A stretch of DNA of 64,000 nucleotides from positions 1 to 64,000 of the forward strand of contig JAJEIP010000114.1 in the NCBI GenBank assembly GCA_022827885.1, read 5' to 3'. Position 1 is the first letter of the stretch. The number at the start of each line of letters is the position of its first letter. Below, in pieces: positions 2,714 through 61,976 of this stretch. This stretch comes from Candidatus Poribacteria bacterium. Lineage in GTDB: Bacteria; Poribacteria; WGA-4E; WGA-3G. The notes beneath the pieces are model-generated. The model searched no databases and was not told where the DNA came from. It worked only from the letters and a program-made list of their open reading frames with translations. The translations under genes and the position numbers were made by a program.

Positions 2714-3940
2714 GTGAGAAAAATATCCCACTTTTTTTGGATATGCCTGATTATTTTTACGCAATTCGTAGGCAGCGTCCTTTTACTCGATACGCAAAAT
2801 GCCTTTGCACAACTCCAGAGTGAATTCGGACAGAGTCTCCTCGAAAGGAAACCCGAAACCCCTGAAACGGATTCCGCAGAACTGACAATTGACTCCCACT
2901 TCTCTAACACATTCAACAACCATATTGAATTCGGTCTAAGCGTCGATCCATACACCAGCGGCCTCGCCGGTGAGGAAGATTCACAACTTGAAGGTATGAT
3001 TAACCGTTTCGGGGTCAATCTGCTCGGGGATTTACCGATAACTGATAAACTCAGGCTCAAATTGCAATACGCGCCACAAGTTGAAAACTACACGGGTGCT
3101 GATGGAAAACTCAACGAATTCGACGCCTTCAGCGATGTATTTTCAACTGAAGTGAGTTTCCAACCCGTCGCGAATTTGCCGCCTCTCGTCACGTCCCATC
3201 AACTGCAACGCTTCGTGCGAAGTTCAAACGTCTATAATAACACCGACCGGCAATTCGGTCTCCGCTTTGGGCGCGTCTTGGAGTATAATCTGCGGTTACA
3301 CCGCTTCGACGACGAAGATGCGCGAAGAGAGGATTTCCTACTTGTCGGCTCTACCAACCATAAAATGACTGCACGCTTGCAATTCGGGATTCTTAAACAG
3401 ATCCTTGGTAAACTGGAATACGGGATAGAGCGGAGTAGCTACCAAACCAACCTGAACAATCTTATCTTGGGGATAACGGGACTTGACGACAATGAACGCC
3501 GAAACGATTGGCGACACATCGGTTCCACAAAACTGATACAGGTCGCAATGGATAGACTCGTGTTTCAGGAAGAGGTGAACCTATTTCTGAATCGTTCTAA
3601 TGTCGATTTCTTTAACTTTCTCAGTACCGAAGTCGCCGCAAGTGCCTTTTATCGCTTTGAGACGGGACGCTGGCTTCGGCTTCGATTCTCCAGACTCTGG
3701 GTGCTTTTTGAAGGTAGACAGATTCCAGACGAAATCGGGAATATAGTGGAAGACGCACCAAACCGTCGGGATACACAGATAGGTGCGAATGTACAGTTGA
3801 ATTGGGAATTGAATCCATATCTAACACTCAATGCCGATTATCAGGTTACTCAGAACCGCACGAATGAGGTAGATCCACTGCTCGATTTTCTTAATTATAC
3901 GCAGACCATCGCAACCCTCACGCTCCGCGGTCAGTATTGA
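2714..3940 (+). CDS. putative outer-membrane beta-barrel-like protein
   Basis: A 408-residue protein starting at GTG 2714, with GGAG about ten bases upstream. The first 32 residues form a signal peptide with likely cleavage after AFA. The mature part is rich in alternating aromatic/polar strands (LRLKLQYAPQVENY, FGLRFGRVLEYNLRLHRF, LTLNADYQVTQNRTNE) and the C-terminus TLTLRGQY is strand-like with a terminal aromatic residue, as in outer-membrane barrels. No named family is recognised. It follows thiG by 35 bases but the content gives no link to thiamine; a role in thiamine precursor uptake would be speculation. Confidence 0.6.
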   Translation: MRKISHFFWICLIIFTQFVGSVLLLDTQNAFAQLQSEFGQSLLERKPETPETDSAELTIDSHFSNTFNNHIEFGLSVDPYTSGLAGEEDSQLEGMINRFGVNLLGDLPITDKLRLKLQYAPQVENYTGADGKLNEFDAFSDVFSTEVSFQPVANLPPLVTSHQLQRFVRSSNVYNNTDRQFGLRFGRVLEYNLRLHRFDDEDARREDFLLVGSTNHKMTARLQFGILKQILGKLEYGIERSSYQTNLNNLILGITGLDDNERRNDWRHIGSTKLIQVAMDRLVFQEEVNLFLNRSNVDFFNFLSTEVAASAFYRFETGRWLRLRFSRLWVLFEGRQIPDEIGNIVEDAPNRRDTQIGANVQLNWELNPYLTLNADYQVTQNRTNEVDPLLDFLNYTQTIATLTLRGQY

Positions 3941-34548: not shown

Positions 34549-34634
34549 TTATGCAACCTTTCTGCCCTTAAAACGCGACATTATAATATAAGCCAAAATG
34601 TCGTTTGATGGCTCGACCCGAAAAAATAGAATGA
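34549..34634 (+). promoter_or_regulatory. duplicated promoter block, copy 1 (ECF-like or sigma-70)
   Basis: ATGCAACCTT (34551-34560), AAAACGCGAC (34570-34579) and TATAAT (34582-34587), then GAAAAAATAGAATGAA. The whole 85-base block is closely matched at 39214-39299, upstream of the ABC ATPase gene. AAC, 18 bases, then CGAC resembles ECF-type -35/-10 spacing; TATAAT could instead serve sigma-70. It serves the permease at 34671. Confidence 0.65.
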
Positions 34635-34670
34635 ACGGATATAATGTCTCTAAACTTTTAAGGAGATACC

Positions 34671-36146
34671 ATGTTCCGAAACCTTATCCGCCAAGAACTT
34701 CTATCGCATCTGATGAGTGCTCGCTTTTTTGCTGCTGTCGTGATTACCCTTCTCCTCGTCGTCGCCAATGCCGTCGTCCTCCTTGAAGATTACGAGCGTC
34801 GATTGGCGAGATATAGCCAGCAAGAAAATACGCATCGCCAGAAAGCACAGGAAGCGAAAACCTACTCCACTTTAAAACTCTCTGTTGAACGTCCGCCGAA
34901 CCCTCTAAGCCTCTTTAGTGCGGGATTGGATAAGCGACTGGGAAGTACCTTTGAAATTTACCACGGTTCTGTCCCACTGATTTCGGACGGCTCGGCGCGC
35001 AGTCTCGATAACGCGTTCCTGAACCTCTTTTCAAAGATCGATCTCGTCCTCATTTTTCAAGTCGTCTTGAGCCTGATGGCACTGCTCTTCGCTTACGACG
35101 CAATTGCAGGAGATTGGGAAAACGGTACCTTGCGCCTGGTTATCTCCCACCCAGTGAGACGCGGGACTATTCTGCTTGCCAAATATATTGGGGCAATGGT
35201 TTGTCTGCTGCTTCCAGTGCTGATGAGTCTCCTGATGGTCCTGATTCTATTATCCACTGTCGGTTCGATCCAATTGGATGGAGAAGATTTTCTTCGGATC
35301 GGTGGAATAGTTTTGACGACAACCATCTACTTGTCTGCTTTTTATCTGATTGGCTTATTGATCTCCACAGCAACACGCCGCACTGCCACATCTCTGATGC
35401 TCTGTATGTTTTTGTGGGTAGCTTTGGTACTCGTCTATCCGAATTGGAGCCGGTTTGCCATCACCCCCGTTGGCGATACGCGCGCCGTCCGGTCATCAAG
35501 CGATCAACAGATTGCGCAGATTTGGGAAGAGGTTGATAGAGAAGAAGCTCAATTTTTAGCAAACAGTCCCCTTGAAGGCAAACCTCAACGTTTTAATCTG
35601 GATGTCATACAGTCAAGTGGTTTCTCGGGAGGCAGACGGTATGGGATAGATATGAAATTAAGCAATCAATCAGATCCCCTCGTGCCGCATGTTCAAAAGT
35701 ATCATGCGACCATGGGTGCTTTGTACATCCGCTCGGCAGAACAGATCGCTTTAGTCCGAAAACAGACTTTGGACCGCACCTCTCTTCGGAGAGCGATATG
35801 GCATGAACGCCTGATGAAACTCAGTCCTGCGAGCCTGTACACGTTTGCAACTGCGGCGTGGGCAGGGACCGACCTGGAGGGTATGTCTGATTTCGTCCAA
35901 GCCGTCCAAAGTTACCGGCGCACCCTCATTGACTATTTCCACGATAAAGATGCGTTCGGCAGTCGGCAATGGTTCGCCTCTGACAAAGGCGCAGTGGACT
36001 GGTGGGATTTACCGCAGTTCCGTTTCGCACGGGCGGATGTCTCCGAAAACGCAACACGGGCACTGCCAGAACTGTTTTTGCTGCTACTCATCAACCTATT
36101 CCTGTTCACAGCGACATTTCTGATTTTCACCAAACTTGAAGTTTAA
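34671..36146 (+). CDS. ABC-2 type transporter permease 2
   Basis: A 491-residue paralogue of the permease at 32981, starting MFRNLIRQELLSHLMSARFF with a helix directly after, a soluble loop, a cluster of helices (about 125-265), a long charged loop and a C-terminal helix. The ABC-2 signature reads FAYDAIAGDWENGTLRLV. It has its own promoter block (34549-34634), shared with the ATPase gene, and a good AAGGAG site. The 274-base gap before it otherwise holds no gene. Confidence 0.85.
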   Translation: MFRNLIRQELLSHLMSARFFAAVVITLLLVVANAVVLLEDYERRLARYSQQENTHRQKAQEAKTYSTLKLSVERPPNPLSLFSAGLDKRLGSTFEIYHGSVPLISDGSARSLDNAFLNLFSKIDLVLIFQVVLSLMALLFAYDAIAGDWENGTLRLVISHPVRRGTILLAKYIGAMVCLLLPVLMSLLMVLILLSTVGSIQLDGEDFLRIGGIVLTTTIYLSAFYLIGLLISTATRRTATSLMLCMFLWVALVLVYPNWSRFAITPVGDTRAVRSSSDQQIAQIWEEVDREEAQFLANSPLEGKPQRFNLDVIQSSGFSGGRRYGIDMKLSNQSDPLVPHVQKYHATMGALYIRSAEQIALVRKQTLDRTSLRRAIWHERLMKLSPASLYTFATAAWAGTDLEGMSDFVQAVQSYRRTLIDYFHDKDAFGSRQWFASDKGAVDWWDLPQFRFARADVSENATRALPELFLLLLINLFLFTATFLIFTKLEV

Positions 36147-36164
36147 ATGTTGCTTGCGCGCGAG

Positions 36165-36305
36165 CAAGATTACCAAACAAACCCCATCGAACCGTGAGAA
36201 AAATTTATACGTGTTAGTTAGAGACCGGAAGCCCAAGCAACGCGCCGGGCTGGCACAACGGAAACGGACTCTAATCACCAAACGAACCGCATCGAACCGC
36301 AAGGA
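36165..36305 (+). repeat. imperfect direct repeats before permease 3
   Basis: ACCAAACAAACCCCATCGAACCG and ACCAAACGAACCGCATCGAACCG (each 23 bases, near 36171 and 36278; shown here as related units) flank a stretch containing GCGCCGGGCTGGC. The second unit runs into the leader CCGCAAGGAACATTAAAAAC before the ATG at 36317. Confidence 0.55.
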
Positions 36306-36316
36306 ACATTAAAAAC

Positions 36317-37843
36317 ATGATTTGGCATATTATTAAACGAGAACTCTTTGACCACATCAACAGCCTGCGTTTCATTCTAACCGTTGTGATACTCTTCATC
36401 TTAATGGTTACCAACGCCGTAGTACATCTTCGGACCCACCCAGAAAGGGTTCGTGATTATTCTGAGAACGTTACCGGTTCCCTCAACACGTTGAAATCCC
36501 GGGCGGATTTGTACACCTTAGCGCAAAAGGGACCGGGTAACCTTTATAAAAGTCCATCTTCACTTGCCTTCATCGCAGACGGTGGCGATGCATATTTGCC
36601 GAAAAATATATCAAACGAAGGGTCTTGGTCCAAAAGTGGTCCCGGATGGAAGGCACAAAGCAACTGGTGGCTGAGTTACGGATCCGCGAATCCAGATGCC
36701 AAAGACCTACGTCCGCAGGCAACAAAGATAGATTGGGTATTCATCATCACCTACCTGCTCTCCTTTATCCCGCTTTTATTCACCTTCGACGCGCTTTCTG
36801 GCGAACGACAGCAGGGAACCTTGCGATTGTGTTTGGCGAATCCGATTTCGCGACCTGTTCTGTTAATTGGTAAATTCTTAGGGACCTTAATAACTGTGCT
36901 TATTCCTTTCGTTTTCGCGGTGTTGCTGAATTTGACAGTGATCTCTGCCGACACCTGGACGCAACTGAGCACAGCCGACTGGGGACGTTTAGGGTTGATT
37001 CTGTTAATTGCTTCCAGTTACGCGGGTATCTTTGTTGGATTGGGATTGATGATCTCGGCTGGGACGCGAGAGCCTCGGGTGAGTCTGGTCATTCTGCTAC
37101 TGATTTGGGTAGCCACCGTGGTTTTTATGCCATCGACGCTCGGCACCCTCTCCACAAAATGGATGCCACCCCTCCAAACGATCGATCAATTTCATGCCTC
37201 AAGAGAGGCTGCCCTCAAGCAGATTGACACAGACTATAACGACCGATTGAACGCAGTCAAAGAGAAAAAGACCCCTAACCTTCTCAGTCTCAGCGATCTT
37301 CAGAAACTTTTTGAAACGGACCCTGAAACTGCCAGAGCGGAAGCAGAAAAACTCATGGCAGCGTGGGAGGTAGAGGGTGACGAGGAGCTGGTCCTCAAAG
37401 CGGAACTCATCACCAGAGATGTAGAAACCCGAGAACGTTTTAACCGCGAGTATTTAGAGGCACAAATCGCGCAGGTCCAACGCGCCAGAATCGTGACCCG
37501 GTTTTCGCCAGCAGCGATTGTCCAATACGCACTCGAATCAATGGCGGGTACTGGTTTTAATCGCCACCTGCAATATTTAGAACACGTCCATGATTACACA
37601 AGACAATTTCGACAATTCATCGTAGAAACCGATAGCGCAGACACCCAAAGTCGCCATCTCATCGGCATCCCTGAGGGTATGTCTGAGGAGCCAATTGCGA
37701 GTGAGGCGATCCCGAAATTTGAGGATAAAATCGCCTTCAGCGATACGCTCAACACCGCGACTTTGGATTTACTGTTACTTGTCTCGCTGCTCGGCGTATT
37801 TTTTTTGGGAGCATTTCTTATCTTTATACGCGCAGAGGTATAA
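36317..37843 (+). CDS. ABC-2 type transporter permease 3
   Basis: A 508-residue member of the same permease group, with N-terminal helix (FILTVVILFILMVTNAVV), soluble loop to about residue 140, helix cluster to about 280, a long charged loop containing heptad-like stretches (QKLFETDPETARAEAEKLMA) and a final helix. The signature is FTFDALSGERQQGTLRL. The start uses the recurrent CCGCAAGGAA leader. Three related permeases with one ATPase is unusual; they may form alternative heterodimers. Confidence 0.85.
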   Translation: MIWHIIKRELFDHINSLRFILTVVILFILMVTNAVVHLRTHPERVRDYSENVTGSLNTLKSRADLYTLAQKGPGNLYKSPSSLAFIADGGDAYLPKNISNEGSWSKSGPGWKAQSNWWLSYGSANPDAKDLRPQATKIDWVFIITYLLSFIPLLFTFDALSGERQQGTLRLCLANPISRPVLLIGKFLGTLITVLIPFVFAVLLNLTVISADTWTQLSTADWGRLGLILLIASSYAGIFVGLGLMISAGTREPRVSLVILLLIWVATVVFMPSTLGTLSTKWMPPLQTIDQFHASREAALKQIDTDYNDRLNAVKEKKTPNLLSLSDLQKLFETDPETARAEAEKLMAAWEVEGDEELVLKAELITRDVETRERFNREYLEAQIAQVQRARIVTRFSPAAIVQYALESMAGTGFNRHLQYLEHVHDYTRQFRQFIVETDSADTQSRHLIGIPEGMSEEPIASEAIPKFEDKIAFSDTLNTATLDLLLLVSLLGVFFLGAFLIFIRAEV

Positions 37844-37921
37844 AAGCCCATGGCACACACTGAGAGTCGAGACTAAAGAGTCTCCGTTTTGGAAGATGTA
37901 TGGTTTCTGGCTCAGATGCGG

Positions 37922-37958
37922 TGCGGATAGGAAACCGCACCTACCGAACCTGGGGACA
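37922..37958 (-). repeat. GGTAGGTGCGGTTTC repeat, copy 2
   Basis: On the minus strand this reads TGTCCCCAGGTTCGGTAGGT followed by GCGGTTTCCTATCCGCA, matching the copy at 30673-30708. GTGCGG and CCGCAC form a small hairpin. It lies in the 183-base gap between permease 3 and the next gene. Confidence 0.6.
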
Positions 37959-38026
37959 GAATACCAAGGTTACAAAATTGAGGTTCGTCATCACAAATTA
38001 TTCTTACGAACAGAGAGGCATCTATC

Positions 38027-38905
38027 ATGTTGAACAAATTTCGCGTCGTTTTGCGTCTGTTGCTCATTTTTGGCTTCAGTACTACGCTATTGGCGAAGGA
38101 AAGTAAAGATGTGTATTTCCCACACGTGCCAGGGAGCTACTGGGTTTACGAGGATCAGGATGGAAATGAATTAACGCGGTCGACTGTAGAGAAAAAGGAA
38201 ATTGAGGGTGAGATGTATAGCAGCTTCAGCTATAAACCCGCCTTGGAGGATTGGATAGTTTATGACTATCACATCCACCCAAATTTCTACAAGGTTGGTG
38301 AAGAGAGGGTTACGTTCTTGATCGCGGATGAGACACAGAAAGCAGTCACGGCACGCCTTACCAAAGAGATGGAGACCCTCCGGACAATTCTCCTGGTGAA
38401 TATGATGGAATTTGATATCCTCTCTGACATTGAAGTGGAGGTGAACGACTCATTCTATGTGTTTCCAACGCCTGTCACTTTCAACGAAGCGTGGGAAGCA
38501 CTAGAGATAAAAGCTAAAATTACGATGCGATCTGATCCACCACAAGATCCTGAAGAAATTATACTTGAATTCACTATTGTTGAAACAGGCAAGGTGTTAG
38601 ACACAGAAACTGTTGAGACACCCGCTGGCACTTTTGAAAACTGTTTGAAGATTGAATACCAGACAAAAACAGAGGTGGAAACGTTCCCGATGGACCAGGC
38701 CGACCAGGTACCAGATCCACCCGGCGAATCCGTTACGAGGCTGTGGGTAGCCCCTAATGTCGGAATTGTCAAGTTTCACCAAAAAAGGGAGGATACCGTT
38801 CTGAAAACTCTTCCTCCTCTTCCTGGACTTAAGGCTTCAACCACGGTCAAAACCCTTGAATTAAAGAGGTATGAAATCAAATCTGCTGATGTTGAGGGCG
38901 AATAA
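38027..38905 (+). CDS. exported hypothetical protein
   Basis: A 292-residue protein with a signal peptide (cleavage near LLAKE) and a strand-rich mature part. Segments such as PGSYWVYEDQDGNEL, ETPAGTFENCLKIEY and RLWVAPNVGIVKFHQ recall periplasmic proteins of the DUF3108/lipocalin-like kind with an internal 'pAGtF.nC..i.Y' strand, but no family is assigned. GAGAGG precedes the start. It lies between the permeases and the ATPase of the transporter module and is followed by a terminator. Confidence 0.65.
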   Translation: MLNKFRVVLRLLLIFGFSTTLLAKESKDVYFPHVPGSYWVYEDQDGNELTRSTVEKKEIEGEMYSSFSYKPALEDWIVYDYHIHPNFYKVGEERVTFLIADETQKAVTARLTKEMETLRTILLVNMMEFDILSDIEVEVNDSFYVFPTPVTFNEAWEALEIKAKITMRSDPPQDPEEIILEFTIVETGKVLDTETVETPAGTFENCLKIEYQTKTEVETFPMDQADQVPDPPGESVTRLWVAPNVGIVKFHQKREDTVLKTLPPLPGLKASTTVKTLELKRYEIKSADVEGE

Positions 38906-38970
38906 GCAACTTCTGGCAAAAGGATCCCTAAATGACCAAGTCTAAATCGTGGGCGAGAATATTGGTAAGA

Positions 38971-39003
38971 AAGGGTGCAGGCGTCACATTCTGCACCCTT
39001 TTT
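38971..39003 (+). terminator. rho-independent terminator
   Basis: AAGGGTGCAG (38971-38980) pairs perfectly with CTGCACCCTT (38991-39000) and is followed by T's. It ends the transcript of the gene at 38027. The remaining gap to 39422 carries the promoter block at 39214 and no gene I can support. Confidence 0.8.
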
Positions 39004-39213
39004 GCCCCTGAAATGTCTCTTTAAATTATAAGAGAGGGTAGCGATGGTCTTATACACCCTCGGAACAATGCGCAGGACCGGATTGAACTGCCAGCTGTAA
39101 TTCCGAAAAGGTATCCATCTTCACACAATACAATCCCGATCCGAGTGAATCGATTTGAGAAACTTCTCTATATAAATGGTGTGTACAGAGGCACGCGGGA
39201 ATAAAAATAAAAT

Positions 39214-39300
39214 AATGCAACCTTTTCACCTTCAAAACGCGTCACTATAATACAAGTTCAAATATTGTTTGTTGGCTAAACTTGAAAAATAGAATGAATC
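39214..39300 (+). promoter_or_regulatory. duplicated promoter block, copy 2
   Basis: ATGCAACCTT (39215-39224), AAAACGCGTC (39234-39243), TATAAT (39246-39251) and GAAAAATAGAATGAA. It aligns base for base, with about one gap, to 34549-34634. It drives the ABC ATPase gene with a leader of about 160 bases. AAC-N18-CGTC fits an ECF-type promoter. Confidence 0.65.
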
Positions 39301-39421
39301 AATGTAACACTTCTTACAGTTACATCAATAAAGGCATAGAATAGACGTGAGTCTTAGTTGAAAGCGTTCTACATTTCCGGTATCATATACAGAGCAGAAA
39401 ATCAACCGTAGGAGGAACCTC

Positions 39422-40156
39422 ATGTTAGAAACCCGTGATCTTACGAAAGTTTATAACGAAAGCGTTTTAGCCGTTAACAAGTTGAACCTGAAAGTGGACG
39501 ATGGCGAAATCTATGTCGTCCTTGGCGCGAATGGTGCTGGGAAAAGCACGACCATCTCCATGCTCCTGAACTTCATCGAACCGACAAGCGGCACTGCATT
39601 GGTAGGCGACATTGAGATTCCAAAGTTCCCACTGGAGGCGAAGAAGCATCTCGCCTACGTCTCTGAGAACGTCGAACTCTATCGCAATTTTACGGCGCGT
39701 CAAAACCTATCCTTCTTCGCAAAACTCGGTGGACGTAAGAAGGTATCCAACGAGGAACTCGATGCCACGCTTGGACGTGTCGGCTTACCAGAAGAAGCCT
39801 TTACGCGACGCGTCAAGACCTTTTCCAAAGGGATGCGCCAACGCCTGGGCATTGCCATTGCGATTATGAAGAATGCACAAGCCGTCCTCCTCGATGAGCC
39901 GACTTCGGGTTTGGACCCTAAAGGGGGTGCCGATTTCCTGAATCTTCTGCGTGAGTTGAGAGAGGAAGGCAAAGCCATCTTCATGTCCACACACGACATC
40001 TTCCGTGCGAAGGAAATCGCCGACAGGATCGGCATTCTCGTGGAAGGCAACCTTGAACGCGAGTTGACACGCGAAGAGATTCTCAAAGAAAACCTTGAGA
40101 CGTTGTATCTGCACTATGTTGCCGGATACGAACAGGAAGAAGGCGCGACCGAGTGA
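39422..40156 (+). CDS. ABC transporter ATP-binding protein
   Basis: A 244-residue ATPase. Walker A is GANGAGKST (residues 35-43), the signature is FSKGMRQR, Walker B is AVLLDEPTSGLD, and the switch histidine lies in MSTHDIF. It resembles the CcmA/NatA-type ATPases that work with ABC-2 permeases, so it is the probable motor for the permeases at 32981, 34671 and 36317, which lack their own ATPase. AGGAGG precedes the ATG. It shares a promoter block with permease 2. Confidence 0.92.
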   Translation: MLETRDLTKVYNESVLAVNKLNLKVDDGEIYVVLGANGAGKSTTISMLLNFIEPTSGTALVGDIEIPKFPLEAKKHLAYVSENVELYRNFTARQNLSFFAKLGGRKKVSNEELDATLGRVGLPEEAFTRRVKTFSKGMRQRLGIAIAIMKNAQAVLLDEPTSGLDPKGGADFLNLLRELREEGKAIFMSTHDIFRAKEIADRIGILVEGNLERELTREEILKENLETLYLHYVAGYEQEEGATE

Positions 40157-40175: not shown

Positions 40176-42527
40176 ATGGATGGATGCCAGAAAAAAAGGA
40201 AGAGAAGATTGGAAGATTGGAAGATTGGAAGATTAGGACCCTATCCTTCCACCCATCCTTCCTTCCACTCCTGCTTTCAGTCTTTGACGTTTGTACTGAT
40301 ATTTATGAGCGCGATAGCGGTATCACTCACTGTTCCATTGGCAGCAGTGCCAGAAGAGATCCCGCCTGTTAATGATAACAGCCCGAAAACCAAAGAGGAA
40401 CAGAGCCGCCAAATCCTGATAGAAATCGATCGCCTGAAGATGGAGTTGGCAGAAAATCTGATGAAAAAGAAGCAGGTGGAACTCGAAAATCTCAAGGCGA
40501 TGCTGATGGAGGAAAACAACATCGTCACTGTCTCGGAGGTGAATACTGCAGAAGAGGCTTACGAACGCGCCGTCGATGAATATGAACAGGCAAAATTGAC
40601 GCTGCAACAGACAGAACTTGAGTCGCTGCAAGATGAGTGGCATATCACCGTTGAAAAGACAAGACTCTATGAATCCGCTGATGGGCGGGAGTTGTTCTCA
40701 ATTACCTTGCGGAACAGTTCAGTGCCCGTCAAACTCGTTGAAAGCTCGAAAGTGCTGGGCCGAGAGATTATCATCAGTGCACAGATTGATGACATCTTCG
40801 TCGAGATTAAAGAGCAGGAAGGGTATGGCGCAAGCGGAGCGACGATCACCGAACCCTACGAACAACGGATTGAGACGCTCAAAGAGGGGGAGTCTGTTAC
40901 CCTGGAGTTTGAGCTCATCAAAGAGAACGTGCGGGATGTCGTCGTCGAGTTGAAGTACTCGGGTCGTGAGGAGCAGAAGAACATCCACCTTAAACAGGAT
41001 GATCCGTATATCTCGGTCGTGTCAGCGAGACGTTATAAAGAGGGAGATCGGAGGCGTCTGGAAGTTGTCCTGACCTACGGTGCCTTGGAAGGCGAAACAG
41101 AAGAAACAGGTGCCAACACCGCACAAGAAATCAATAACGTCTATGTCTCCATTAAAGACGACACGGAATCCATCATCGGCTATCCTTATGAACCCCGCAT
41201 TCCAACACTGAAAGACGGACAGGAGAAAACCCTCGACTTTGAACTGCGGCGGAATGTGGATAACCTCACCGTTAATCTCAAATACCTCGATAAGGATATC
41301 TCCTACAAAATTCATCTTGAGGAGGACACGCGCTACATCTCTATCCTCAGTGCGAAGAAGTTTCGCGTTGACAACCAGATGATGGTGACGATTCAACTGA
41401 AAAACACATCTACGACCGAGGCAATGCCCGTCAACGCGACCCCTGAAGAGATTGCAGCCGCAAATGAGATTCGCGGCATCTATGTCTCTTTACTCGACGT
41501 TACCGATGACACGAACATCGTTAAACCGTATGAAGAGAAGATCCCGGTTCTCGGCTACAATGAAATCGCGGAATTGACGTTCCAACTTCAGAAAGATGTA
41601 GAAAGTCTGAAGGTATCGTTAGATTATCCTGAACTTGACGAACCCGATACACGCTTGATTTATCTGCAAAAAGAATCTGCACTGGATGTGGTCAATGTCA
41701 GTTCGCTCCGCTTTTCGCAGGAAGGGAACTTAGGCAGCAGTGTCACCTACGATTTGACGCTCGATCGGTTGGCGGAAACGGAGAACACCTTCCAACTCCG
41801 CGTCATTAACCTCCTTAACCGTCTCTCTTTTGAATTCCAAGACCCAGAGACGCAATCTCGACAGTCTCAGGTAAAGTTCACGCAAGAACAATCAAAGCGG
41901 GATCTTTCGCTGATTGTCTATCTCCCGGAGGAGCTGGATGCGTCCTATCTCGATAGCACGCTTGAGTTCTATGTAGCTGTGATTGATGAGGCGGAAGCGA
42001 ATGAACTCGGCGGTGTCAACAATCGCTTGGATTTACCTGCCGATAGGATTGCGAGTATACAAGGCGGTGTCGAGCGGTTTGAGTTGATTCCAAAGGGGGT
42101 GCCGGAGATTGAGGTGTTTGTGCCGAACGCCTTCCAGACGATCAAGATAGGCGAAGAAGTCAACATGACAGCGACGCTAAAGAACATAGGCACCCGCGAT
42201 CTCGTGGACATTCGTATGCTTGTCGATGTCAACACGGATTGGAAATACACCGTTATCCCTGAAGTTGTCGGCGCATTGGAACGAAACGAGGAGACAGACA
42301 TTCAATTGACGCTGAGTCCACCTGTGGACATCGGCGTGGGTGAATACCAAGCGAAGTTGAACGCAGAAGTCACTGTCGATAATCGTAAGTTTGAGGCACG
42401 CGACCGTTCGATCACGGTGCAAGTTGAGTCTCAGACGCAAATGTCGGTGACGACGCTCCTGTTCGGTGCCTTGATACTCTTGATGATTGGAATTGTTATC
42501 GTCACAGTCCGTATTAGTCGGCGTTGA
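40176..42527 (+). CDS. COG1361/NEW3-like membrane-anchored protein
   Basis: About 783 residues. The N-terminus has about 30 basic residues, a hydrophobic signal (LTFVLIFMSAIAVSLTV), then a coiled-coil (residues about 70-140: IEIDRLKMELAENLMKKKQV), then several Ig-like repeats of the COG1361/NEW3 type with the recurring EPYEQRIETLKEGESVTLEF theme. The second-last domain includes PNAFQTIKIGEEVNMTATLK, and a C-terminal helix (LLFGALILLMIGIVIVTV) is followed by RISRR. Such proteins accompany ABC-2 exporters. ATG 40176 has AAGGA upstream. The leader between start codon and signal is encoded partly by a GGAAG/CTTCC hairpin repeat. Confidence 0.78.
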   Translation: MDGCQKKRKRRLEDWKIGRLGPYPSTHPSFHSCFQSLTFVLIFMSAIAVSLTVPLAAVPEEIPPVNDNSPKTKEEQSRQILIEIDRLKMELAENLMKKKQVELENLKAMLMEENNIVTVSEVNTAEEAYERAVDEYEQAKLTLQQTELESLQDEWHITVEKTRLYESADGRELFSITLRNSSVPVKLVESSKVLGREIIISAQIDDIFVEIKEQEGYGASGATITEPYEQRIETLKEGESVTLEFELIKENVRDVVVELKYSGREEQKNIHLKQDDPYISVVSARRYKEGDRRRLEVVLTYGALEGETEETGANTAQEINNVYVSIKDDTESIIGYPYEPRIPTLKDGQEKTLDFELRRNVDNLTVNLKYLDKDISYKIHLEEDTRYISILSAKKFRVDNQMMVTIQLKNTSTTEAMPVNATPEEIAAANEIRGIYVSLLDVTDDTNIVKPYEEKIPVLGYNEIAELTFQLQKDVESLKVSLDYPELDEPDTRLIYLQKESALDVVNVSSLRFSQEGNLGSSVTYDLTLDRLAETENTFQLRVINLLNRLSFEFQDPETQSRQSQVKFTQEQSKRDLSLIVYLPEELDASYLDSTLEFYVAVIDEAEANELGGVNNRLDLPADRIASIQGGVERFELIPKGVPEIEVFVPNAFQTIKIGEEVNMTATLKNIGTRDLVDIRMLVDVNTDWKYTVIPEVVGALERNEETDIQLTLSPPVDIGVGEYQAKLNAEVTVDNRKFEARDRSITVQVESQTQMSVTTLLFGALILLMIGIVIVTVRISRR
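40204..40270. repeat. GGAAG/CTTCC hairpin repeat inside coding sequence
   Basis: GATTGGAAGATTGGAAGATT units on the left and CCTTCCACCCATCCTTCC / TTCCACTCC on the right are inverted arms of the family seen at 13804-13860. Here the copy is in frame between the start codon and signal peptide of the COG1361-like gene. Confidence 0.7.
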
Positions 42528-42571
42528 AGAATGGTTCCTGATAACCGATAACTATTGAAATGGAGATAGTA

Positions 42572-43963
42572 GTGAACAAGAGGTTAACAAAAGTATTAGC
42601 GATCTGCCTATTCTTTACCATTGGGAGCGTCGTCTCAGCGCAGCGGCGGGTCATACTTCAGCCAGCACGCGCCATCGAACTCGCGCTACAGAACAATGAA
42701 GCCGTGAAAAAGGCAGAAAAAGTGGTGGAACGCGCCAAAGCGAACCTCCGAGTGTCCAAAGCCATCTACCTACCACAGGTGGGGGTCACGGGTGAATATC
42801 AACGCCAAAAAGATGGCGATATTGATGAAAGGGACTATCTCACCCGCGCACAAGCAAGTATGCTTCTCGTCCAATTTGGCGAAATCCCCGAAGGGCTTGA
42901 TGCCGCACAGGAAGATGTCCGTAAGGCAGAGATTGAATATGAACGCTCGAAAAAGCAGAGCGTTCACGATGTCCGCAATCTTTGGAACAACATCGTCCTG
43001 ACACAGGAAGAAATTCAGGAACGTCGTGCGATTGAGGTCGAACTGAATAAAAAACTGAAAGGCACACAAATCAAGCACGCAGAAAAACGGATCCCTTTCC
43101 TCAGTCGCCTCAATACGGAACTTGAACTCTCCGAGCAGCAGCTTGCCCTCAATGAGCTGCAGCGTAGATTGGATGTAGACACCGCGGAACTCATCCGCCT
43201 TACCGGACTCGATCCAATGGCGCAAGTTACGCTCTCAGACCCGCTCCCTGAGGACGACCTGACATTAGAGAATGCAGTTGAACTCGCACTCGCAAACAAT
43301 CTCGATTTACGCGACTTACAAGGCAATATCATGCGTCAAGAACGTCTCGCCGCAGAGACAATCTGGAACCGATTTCCCGAACTCTCTGCCGAAGCACGTT
43401 ACAAGGACCTTCACGTGCTGCTGGAACAACACCAACCCGGTGTAGGTACCAGGGGGCAAACCTGGGACGCAAAGGCGCTCTACGATCCAGTGATACTCGA
43501 TCGGGAGCGAGATACGTCAAGCATTTTTCAAACCAACCCGCGGACCCAAGATGGGTGGGAAGTGCGTTTCAACTTCAACATCCCGTTATACGATGGGAAC
43601 AAAACGAAGCATCTTCGCGCTGTAGAAATCGCAGAACTTGAACGACTTCAGTTGGAATACGTCGAAACAACAAAGTCAATCCGCGTAGAGGTGCGACGGG
43701 CTTACCGTGCCGTGGCGAATGCCAAAGAACGGGCGGAGATCGAAGAGACACGCGTGCGGATTTTTGAGCAAAGGCTACGCACCATAGAACGCGTGCTGGA
43801 TGAAGTCACGGTTGAAATACCCGGGTATCAAAATATGACCTATAACGATGCGTTTCAAACACAAGCACAATTTACAGAGGCGCAACGTGTTTTTTATCAG
43901 GCACGCCGAGATTACGCGAAAGCAAAGGAACAACTCCGAGAAACAATGCAATGGATCGAATAG
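42572..43963 (+). CDS. TolC-family outer-membrane efflux protein
   Basis: About 463 residues. Signal peptide (cleavage near VVSA), then two OEP repeats rich in long helices: RAIELALQNNEAVKKAEKVV and ENAVELALANNLDLRDLQGN mark their starts. The barrel/tunnel plan is that of TolC. GTG 42572 has GGAG seven bases upstream; ATG 42560 is an alternative start four codons earlier. It follows the COG1361-like gene by 44 bases and is likely part of the same export operon, giving an outer-membrane exit for the ABC system. No membrane-fusion protein is evident; the COG1361-like protein may fill that place. Confidence 0.88.
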   Translation: MNKRLTKVLAICLFFTIGSVVSAQRRVILQPARAIELALQNNEAVKKAEKVVERAKANLRVSKAIYLPQVGVTGEYQRQKDGDIDERDYLTRAQASMLLVQFGEIPEGLDAAQEDVRKAEIEYERSKKQSVHDVRNLWNNIVLTQEEIQERRAIEVELNKKLKGTQIKHAEKRIPFLSRLNTELELSEQQLALNELQRRLDVDTAELIRLTGLDPMAQVTLSDPLPEDDLTLENAVELALANNLDLRDLQGNIMRQERLAAETIWNRFPELSAEARYKDLHVLLEQHQPGVGTRGQTWDAKALYDPVILDRERDTSSIFQTNPRTQDGWEVRFNFNIPLYDGNKTKHLRAVEIAELERLQLEYVETTKSIRVEVRRAYRAVANAKERAEIEETRVRIFEQRLRTIERVLDEVTVEIPGYQNMTYNDAFQTQAQFTEAQRVFYQARRDYAKAKEQLRETMQWIE

Positions 43964-43997: not shown

Positions 43998-44627
43998 ATG
44001 AGAAACGCTTTAGCAACACACACTGCCCTCAACCATTTCGATGAGCAGGAACTTGTCGCACGCGCCCAAAATGGTGATACAGAGGCGTTTAACCCGCTCG
44101 TGTACAAATATCAACAAAAAATCTATAATCTGATTTATCGCAAGGTTTGTGACCGTGAGACAGCGAAAGACCTCTGCCAAGAGGTGTTCCTGAAAGCGTG
44201 GCAGGCATTGCCAAATTTCAAGGGGCAATCCGTATTTTACAGTTGGCTTTACCAAATTGCTGTCAACCGTAGCATCGACTTCCTCCGTAAACGCAATAGA
44301 CACCCTGTTATGGGCTTCGAGGAATTACCGCAGAACGCAGACGATACACTTCAAATGGCCGAGGTGCAACCGTCACCCTGTGCGCTTCTCGAAAGGAAAG
44401 AACTCGAAGAGGTTATCCGTAAAGCCGCCTACCAGCTGCCTCTTACCCAACGCAGTGTTTTTTATCTACGTCACCGGGAAGGACTTCCAATAAAAGAGAT
44501 TGCCTCACGCTTGGGCAAGTCGGAGAGCACCGTTAAAACGTACTTACATCACGCCCGTCGGAAACTTCGGAGGATGTTGCTTCCCTACCTACAAAACGAA
44601 CCTATTGCCTGGTACACGGAAACTTGA
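43998..44627 (+). CDS. ECF-type RNA polymerase sigma factor
   Basis: About 209 residues with sigma region 2 (AFNPLVYKYQQKIYNLIYRK, DLCQEVFLKAWQALPNFKG, FYSWLYQIAVNRSIDFLRKR) and region 4 (LPLTQRSVFYLRHREGLPIK, EIASRLGKSESTVKTYLHHA). ATG 43998 has GGAG directly upstream; the frame is open further but the upstream part overlaps the TolC gene. No anti-sigma gene follows. It is the last gene of the ABC/TolC module and could recognise the paired promoter blocks at 34549 and 39214. Confidence 0.9.
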   Translation: MRNALATHTALNHFDEQELVARAQNGDTEAFNPLVYKYQQKIYNLIYRKVCDRETAKDLCQEVFLKAWQALPNFKGQSVFYSWLYQIAVNRSIDFLRKRNRHPVMGFEELPQNADDTLQMAEVQPSPCALLERKELEEVIRKAAYQLPLTQRSVFYLRHREGLPIKEIASRLGKSESTVKTYLHHARRKLRRMLLPYLQNEPIAWYTET

Positions 44628-61364: not shown

Positions 61365-61976
61365 ATGAAATCCCAAAGCCCAGAAAGCATCCCTCCAGAA
61401 TGTAACGAGGATGTTAAACTAATCGAGCGATTTCAACAAGGCGACACCGCCGCATTTGATCTGCTCTTTACCCGTTACCAAAAACGCACCTATCGTTTGG
61501 TGCAACGCTTCGTCCCAAACCCAGAAGACGCATCGGACTTGACACAAGACGCTTTCATACGCGCATATCAAGGATTAGGCGACTTCAAGAGTCAGTGTCA
61601 GTTTTACAGTTGGCTTTACCGAATTACGGTGAATCTCTGTATCGATTTCCTACGGAAAAAAGCAAGATCGGAAGTCCTCCTCTACGACGCCGAGGATTCC
61701 GAGGAACTGCCGATGTCCAATATCCCGGATCCCCGCTCAGAATCACCCGCAAAAGCAATGGAAAATAAGGAGTTGAGGGCTCATATCCGGAAAGCTGTCC
61801 GTCGGCTTCCGCCAAAACAACGGCAAATCTTCATTTTACGACACTGGGACGGGTTATCACTTAAAGATATTGCAGCGACCGTTGGGCGATCCGATGGAAC
61901 AGTCAAAGCCCATCTGCTCCACGCGCATCGTAACCTTCGCAAACATCTCCGCCCCTACCTACGAGAAACAGATTAA
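61365..61976 (+). CDS. ECF-type RNA polymerase sigma factor (second)
   Basis: A 203-residue sigma factor. Region 2 reads AFDLLFTRYQKRTYRLVQRF, DLTQDAFIRAYQGLGDFKS and FYSWLYRITVNLCIDFLRKK; region 4 reads LPPKQRQIFILRHWDGLSLK and DIAATVGRSDGTVKAHLLHA. It is similar in style to the factor at 43998. AGGAG precedes the start. No anti-sigma gene follows directly; a strong hairpin ends the transcript. Confidence 0.92.
   Translation: MKSQSPESIPPECNEDVKLIERFQQGDTAAFDLLFTRYQKRTYRLVQRFVPNPEDASDLTQDAFIRAYQGLGDFKSQCQFYSWLYRITVNLCIDFLRKKARSEVLLYDAEDSEELPMSNIPDPRSESPAKAMENKELRAHIRKAVRRLPPKQRQIFILRHWDGLSLKDIAATVGRSDGTVKAHLLHAHRNLRKHLRPYLRETD

Follow-up and report, generated by a model that had tools for sequence, protein, structure and literature searches.

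Two similar blocks of DNA in a transporter module of Candidatus Poribacteria, a group of uncultured sponge symbionts, are predicted to be genuine ECF-type promoters, a known kind of promoter. The first, here called P34552, lies before the gene for permease 2, and the second, P39216, lies before the gene for the ABC transporter ATPase. Both were found in the window, i.e. the whole stretch of 64,000 nucleotides that was analysed, which belongs to a MAG with a genome of 5.1 Mb. We consider it probable that P39216 is read by the clade of the sigma factor encoded at 43998 and is assisted by a basal promoter, with P34552 being partly or wholly under a second factor. The initial annotation had proposed that one regulator sets the balance of the subunits. 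Such control of everything by a single factor is probably not what the module has, because a single letter separates the two blocks consistently and the ATPase has, in addition, what looks like an ordinary promoter.

All genes of the module lie on the forward strand. P34552 would drive permease 2 (34671-36146) and permease 3 (36317-37843), both with matches to ABC2_membrane_2 and DUF3526, together with a DUF3108-like protein (38027-38905). P39216 would drive a run of four genes, namely the ABC transporter ATPase (39422-40156, domain and family matches), a NEW3-type (NPCBM_assoc) protein (40176-42527), an outer membrane efflux protein of the TolC/OEP family (42560-43963), the latter two assigned by domain matches, and at the end the sigma factor (43998-44627). 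The ECF-type identity previously given to this last gene was confirmed, by matches to Sigma70_r2, Sigma70_r4_2 and TIGR02937 (115.8 bits for TIGR02937, cut-off 42.9). Its product of 209 aa contains sigma-70 regions 2 and 4 only, and about 200 aa are expected for an ECF factor. No anti-sigma gene was recognised among the genes examined beside it. Another ECF-type sigma gene of the window, at 61365-61976, was about 46% identical to sigma 43998, and no motif of the TGCAACCTTT-N14-CGWC class was found upstream of it.

Pairwise alignment of 34549-34634 with 39214-39299 gave 65 identical positions in 88 columns and one internal gap, in agreement with the earlier description of two near-gapless copies. 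The AAC-N18-CGWC spacing reported for them was also correct in both copies, where it forms part of a TGCAACCTTT-N14-CGWC core. In copy 1 (34549-34635) the -35 element TGCAACCTTT occupies 34552-34561, the -10 element CGAC 34576-34579 and the downstream part AAAATAGAATGAA 34623-34635. The corresponding positions in copy 2 (39214-39298) are 39216-39225 for TGCAACCTTT, 39240-39243 for CGTC and 39286-39298 for AAAATAGAATGAA. Elements ATGCAACCTT, AAAACGCGWC, TATAAT and AAAATAGAATGAA were each literally present in both blocks. An AAC-containing -35 element and a -10 element with CGT or CGWC were kept at near-constant spacing in both copies and across orthologues, and the same motif occurred upstream of ECF sigma genes, a signature of autoregulation.

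Sigma70_r2 had 53 matches in the 5.1 Mb genome. In many cases the matched region formed the N-terminus of a reading frame 400-1000 codons long, frequently with ABC permeases as neighbours (e.g. L051, L054 and L055). On contig C148, TGCAACCTTT-N14-CGTCAC was located 60-175 bases ahead of three sigma genes, and variants of it preceded many others. The initial annotation had confined the conservation to the regions before permease 2 and the ATPase; this is true of the whole block, but the AAC-N18-CGWC core is not private to the module and represents one flavour of a promoter found directly upstream of many sigma-70-region-2 genes of the genome. When 93 sigma matches from this genome and its relatives were scanned, repeats included, the promoter flavours tracked the sigma groups. 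The flavour was TGCAACC...TTACGTCACC in the C148 group, TGCACCC...GTGTCTTTAA in much of the C33 group, TGCAACC...AAAACGCGAC or ACACGAC in the C81 group and TGCA(A/C)CC...CGCGTC in the group of sigma 43998. Genes closely related to sigma 43998 had this last flavour upstream; among them were the paralogue in L227 and, in L232, a gene outside the module that resembles an orthologue (68%). In a 41-row tree, CGAC was the mark of a single clade, 9 of 9 sigma genes (support 100/99); the sigma loci had been gathered partly through the motif, so that the sampling was not blind. The tenth row with CGAC, L259, does not represent a sigma gene and was excluded.

Two further observations concern these promoter flavours. 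In L051, two near-identical sigma genes at 3636 and 8390, about 4.75 kb apart, have near-identical promoters and alternate with permease genes, an arrangement that reads as a recent tandem duplication. In the window, positions 38956-39040 contain a hairpin (AAAGGGTGCAG...CTGCACCCTTTTT) that is strong, at -24.6 kcal/mol for the whole stretch, and overlaps a second motif, TGCACCCTTT-N-TGTCTCTTTAAATTATAAGAG. Several relatives have this motif 360-700 bases ahead of their ATPase, and it is similar to the promoters that precede the sigma genes of the C33 group. A terminator and a third ECF promoter are both possible functions of this stretch, alone or in combination.

Orthologous modules were collected through the NEW3 protein, giving 42 loci with the window included. 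In 27 of them the block preceded the ATPase, a genus-wide conservation, and its -10 element was CGTC in all 27. Its distance to the ATPase was about 185-300 bases in many loci, 450-510 bases in two, and about 850-1300 bases where a lipoprotein-like or other gene comes after the block. The core was kept in loci where the flanks differ, and in L163, L173 and L184, which lack the downstream part, it was retained at a distance of about 93 bases from the ATPase. A small lipoprotein-like gene (e.g. MKNTFRS...FLSSC) lies between block and ATPase in L104, L109, L111, L113-L115, L120 and L121. The closest relative of the window, L092 in genome G017 (98% in NEW3), has kept the sigma gene (97%) and lacks the block, and other permeases (68% and 62%) directly precede its ATPase, which suggests an exchange at the permease/ATPase junction.

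The matrix score of P39216 was 41.6 with the sigma-43998 class, 38.8 with the C148-type class and 20.1 with the C81 class. The -35 and -10 elements of P39216 also matched the promoters upstream of the genes closely related to sigma 43998. The earlier proposal of sigma 43998 as reader is strengthened by this match, but the spacing on which it was based is insufficient alone, as the motif class is common to many ECF genes. The most likely reader of P39216 would be the clade of sigma 43998, and in that case the operon would provide positive autoregulation.

Between the block and the ATPase, 64 bases before the start of the latter, a sigma-70-like promoter TTGAAA-N17-TATCAT was found at 39358-39386 on the forward strand. 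It has 10 of 12 matches to TTGACA/TATAAT-like hexamers with a spacing of about 17 bases, as a housekeeping sigma-70 promoter would have. It occurred at near-constant distance in about 28 of the 41 ATPase orthologues, with a mean best score of 9.0 compared to 7.2 in control stretches, and it persisted both in loci with a gene between it and the block and in the block-less L092. On this conservation the ATPase run is predicted to carry two promoters, one basal and one of ECF type, and the housekeeping promoter would give a basal supply beneath P39216.

At least 12 modules (L097, L104-L106, L109, L111, L113-L116, L118 and L122) keep the ATPase block, but in the sequence covered TolC is not followed by a sigma gene. 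Since the block persists in these modules, sigma 43998 is a plausible reader of P39216 and not an obligatory one. A paralogue of sigma 43998, about 58-64% identical to it, is encoded in most of the genomes where the block is kept and a local sigma gene is missing, and this paralogue could act on the block in trans. This distribution, together with the wide occurrence of the motif class, would also fit control of the promoters by another member of this broad class of ECF factors, such as the genus-wide paralogue G000:C82:1715-2323 or a C148-type factor, with sigma 43998 only a passenger. We regard this alternative as serious though unlikely, as sigma 43998 is placed at the end of the run and P39216 scored lower with the C148-type class, if by a small margin.

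The block before permease 2 was present in six related genomes (the window, L093, L096, L146, L160 and L174), and its -10 element was CGAC in all six. CGAC is otherwise found in the promoters of another ECF clade, that of sigma C81, so that P34552 would probably answer wholly or partly to this second factor. The matrix score of P34552 was 40.6 with the C81 class and 34.8 with the sigma-43998 class, an intermediate or hybrid character overall. Its orthologues deviated by +0.3 to +10.8 towards C81 in the matrix test, compared to +17.7 to +30.5 for true C81 promoters. In this genome the operon of sigma C81 carries, right behind the sigma gene, a paralogue of the DUF3108 gene headed by P34552, with 60% identity. 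Shared ancestry is the best explanation for the likeness of P34552 and P39216. A more tentative suggestion, on which we would not insist, is that P34552 is a hybrid, a copied promoter whose -10 element was retuned from CGTC to CGAC, which would connect a single transporter module with two ECF factors. Permease and ATPase subunits might thereby be controlled by two different members of a large ECF expansion specific to the lineage.

Reading of both promoters by sigma 43998 alone, coordinating the permease and ATPase subunits, appears rather improbable. It would account for the -35 element and AAAACGCG being common to both promoters, for the sigma gene ending the ATPase run and for the score that P34552 still reaches with the sigma-43998 class. 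However, a single reader would be expected to find the same -10 element at both promoters and to accompany the block, whereas CGAC and CGTC are fixed each in its own set, at least 12 modules have the block without the sigma gene, and the ATPase has its second promoter.

The TATAAT of the blocks, listed in the initial annotation among the kept elements, changes in relatives to TATAAC, TATGAT, TATGAC, TATTAC and so on, and it is therefore not a conserved sigma-70 -10 box. That the blocks are ordinary sigma-70 promoters with TATAAT and a weak -35 element, their AAC/CGWC resemblance being accidental, is very unlikely. TTTTCA-N17-TATAAT scores 10 of 12 in copy 2, but such sites are as numerous in the region as in shuffles, and the relatives contradict this reading by conserving AACC and CGWC and not TATAAT.

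The downstream part AAAATAGAATGAAGGGATACAAC (34623-34652 and 39286-39325) was kept in most blocks and could be a binding site. An upstream open reading frame in this part was rejected, because its ATG was lost in several copies (L104, L146 and L174) or replaced by GTG or TTG in others, and a search of it for RNA structure gave no consensus pairs. A second sigma-70 promoter within the block (TTGAAA and TACAAC) was not adopted either, since the length of the A-run ahead is variable and the hexamers are less well conserved than their supposed spacer.

A 131-base query around copy 2 recovered copy 1 from the 5.1 Mb genome at E = 6.5e-13 (78% over 90 bases), and the remaining matches were partial, mostly of the 35-40 base promoter core, with E >= 5.7e-4. 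The whole block was thus present at two places only, and the many unrelated copies that the initial annotation had named as the sign of a plain repeat were not found. With up to 3 mismatches, the core pattern GCAACCTTTNNNCCNTNAAAACGCGWC matched the window exactly twice, at the two blocks, where shuffles expect 0.00. The exact pattern was found in 26 stretches, all from Poribacteria, among about 85,000 species genomes scanned. Among 60 genomes searched with up to 1 mismatch, it was present in 35 of the 36 that belong to the same genus as the window (counting the window's own genome) and absent from all those of other genera. That the blocks are a plain duplicated repeat or mobile fragment and do not act as promoters is hardly credible: two copies do occur in one module, and related modules have been shuffled and duplicated across genomes, but the restriction to two full copies contradicts it and the core stays upstream of genes across the genus.

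The SigW, SigX and SigM factors of Bacillus subtilis share an AAC -35 element, differ by small changes in the -10 element (CGTA, CGAC and CGTC) and have overlapping regulons. The related ECF factors described here likewise combine an AAC -35 element with small -10 changes that tell them apart. Unlike in B. subtilis, there are 53 sigma-70-region-2 matches in one genome, many of them at the start of considerably longer reading frames, and a single transporter module contains two -10 variants. A literature search combining Poribacteria, ECF and sigma factor found no relevant paper. ECF promoters are generally marked by AAC in the -35 and CGT in the -10 element and by positive autoregulation (PMC8103513). 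As in such autoregulated operons, AAC-N18-CGWC precedes ECF genes here and also a run that ends in one. In contrast to them (PMC8103513), the promoter predicted for sigma 43998 is found four genes upstream, in front of an ABC ATPase, none of the genes examined next to this factor was recognised as an anti-sigma gene, and one clade uses the CGAC variant.

Because many of the 53 sigma-70-region-2 genes are preceded by their own readable promoter, pairs of sigma factor and promoter are predictable by comparison alone in this organism. The fixed split between CGTC and CGAC within one module offers a concrete case of related ECF regulons separating or staying linked, and the point of interest is that a single transporter module may be wired to two sigma factors.
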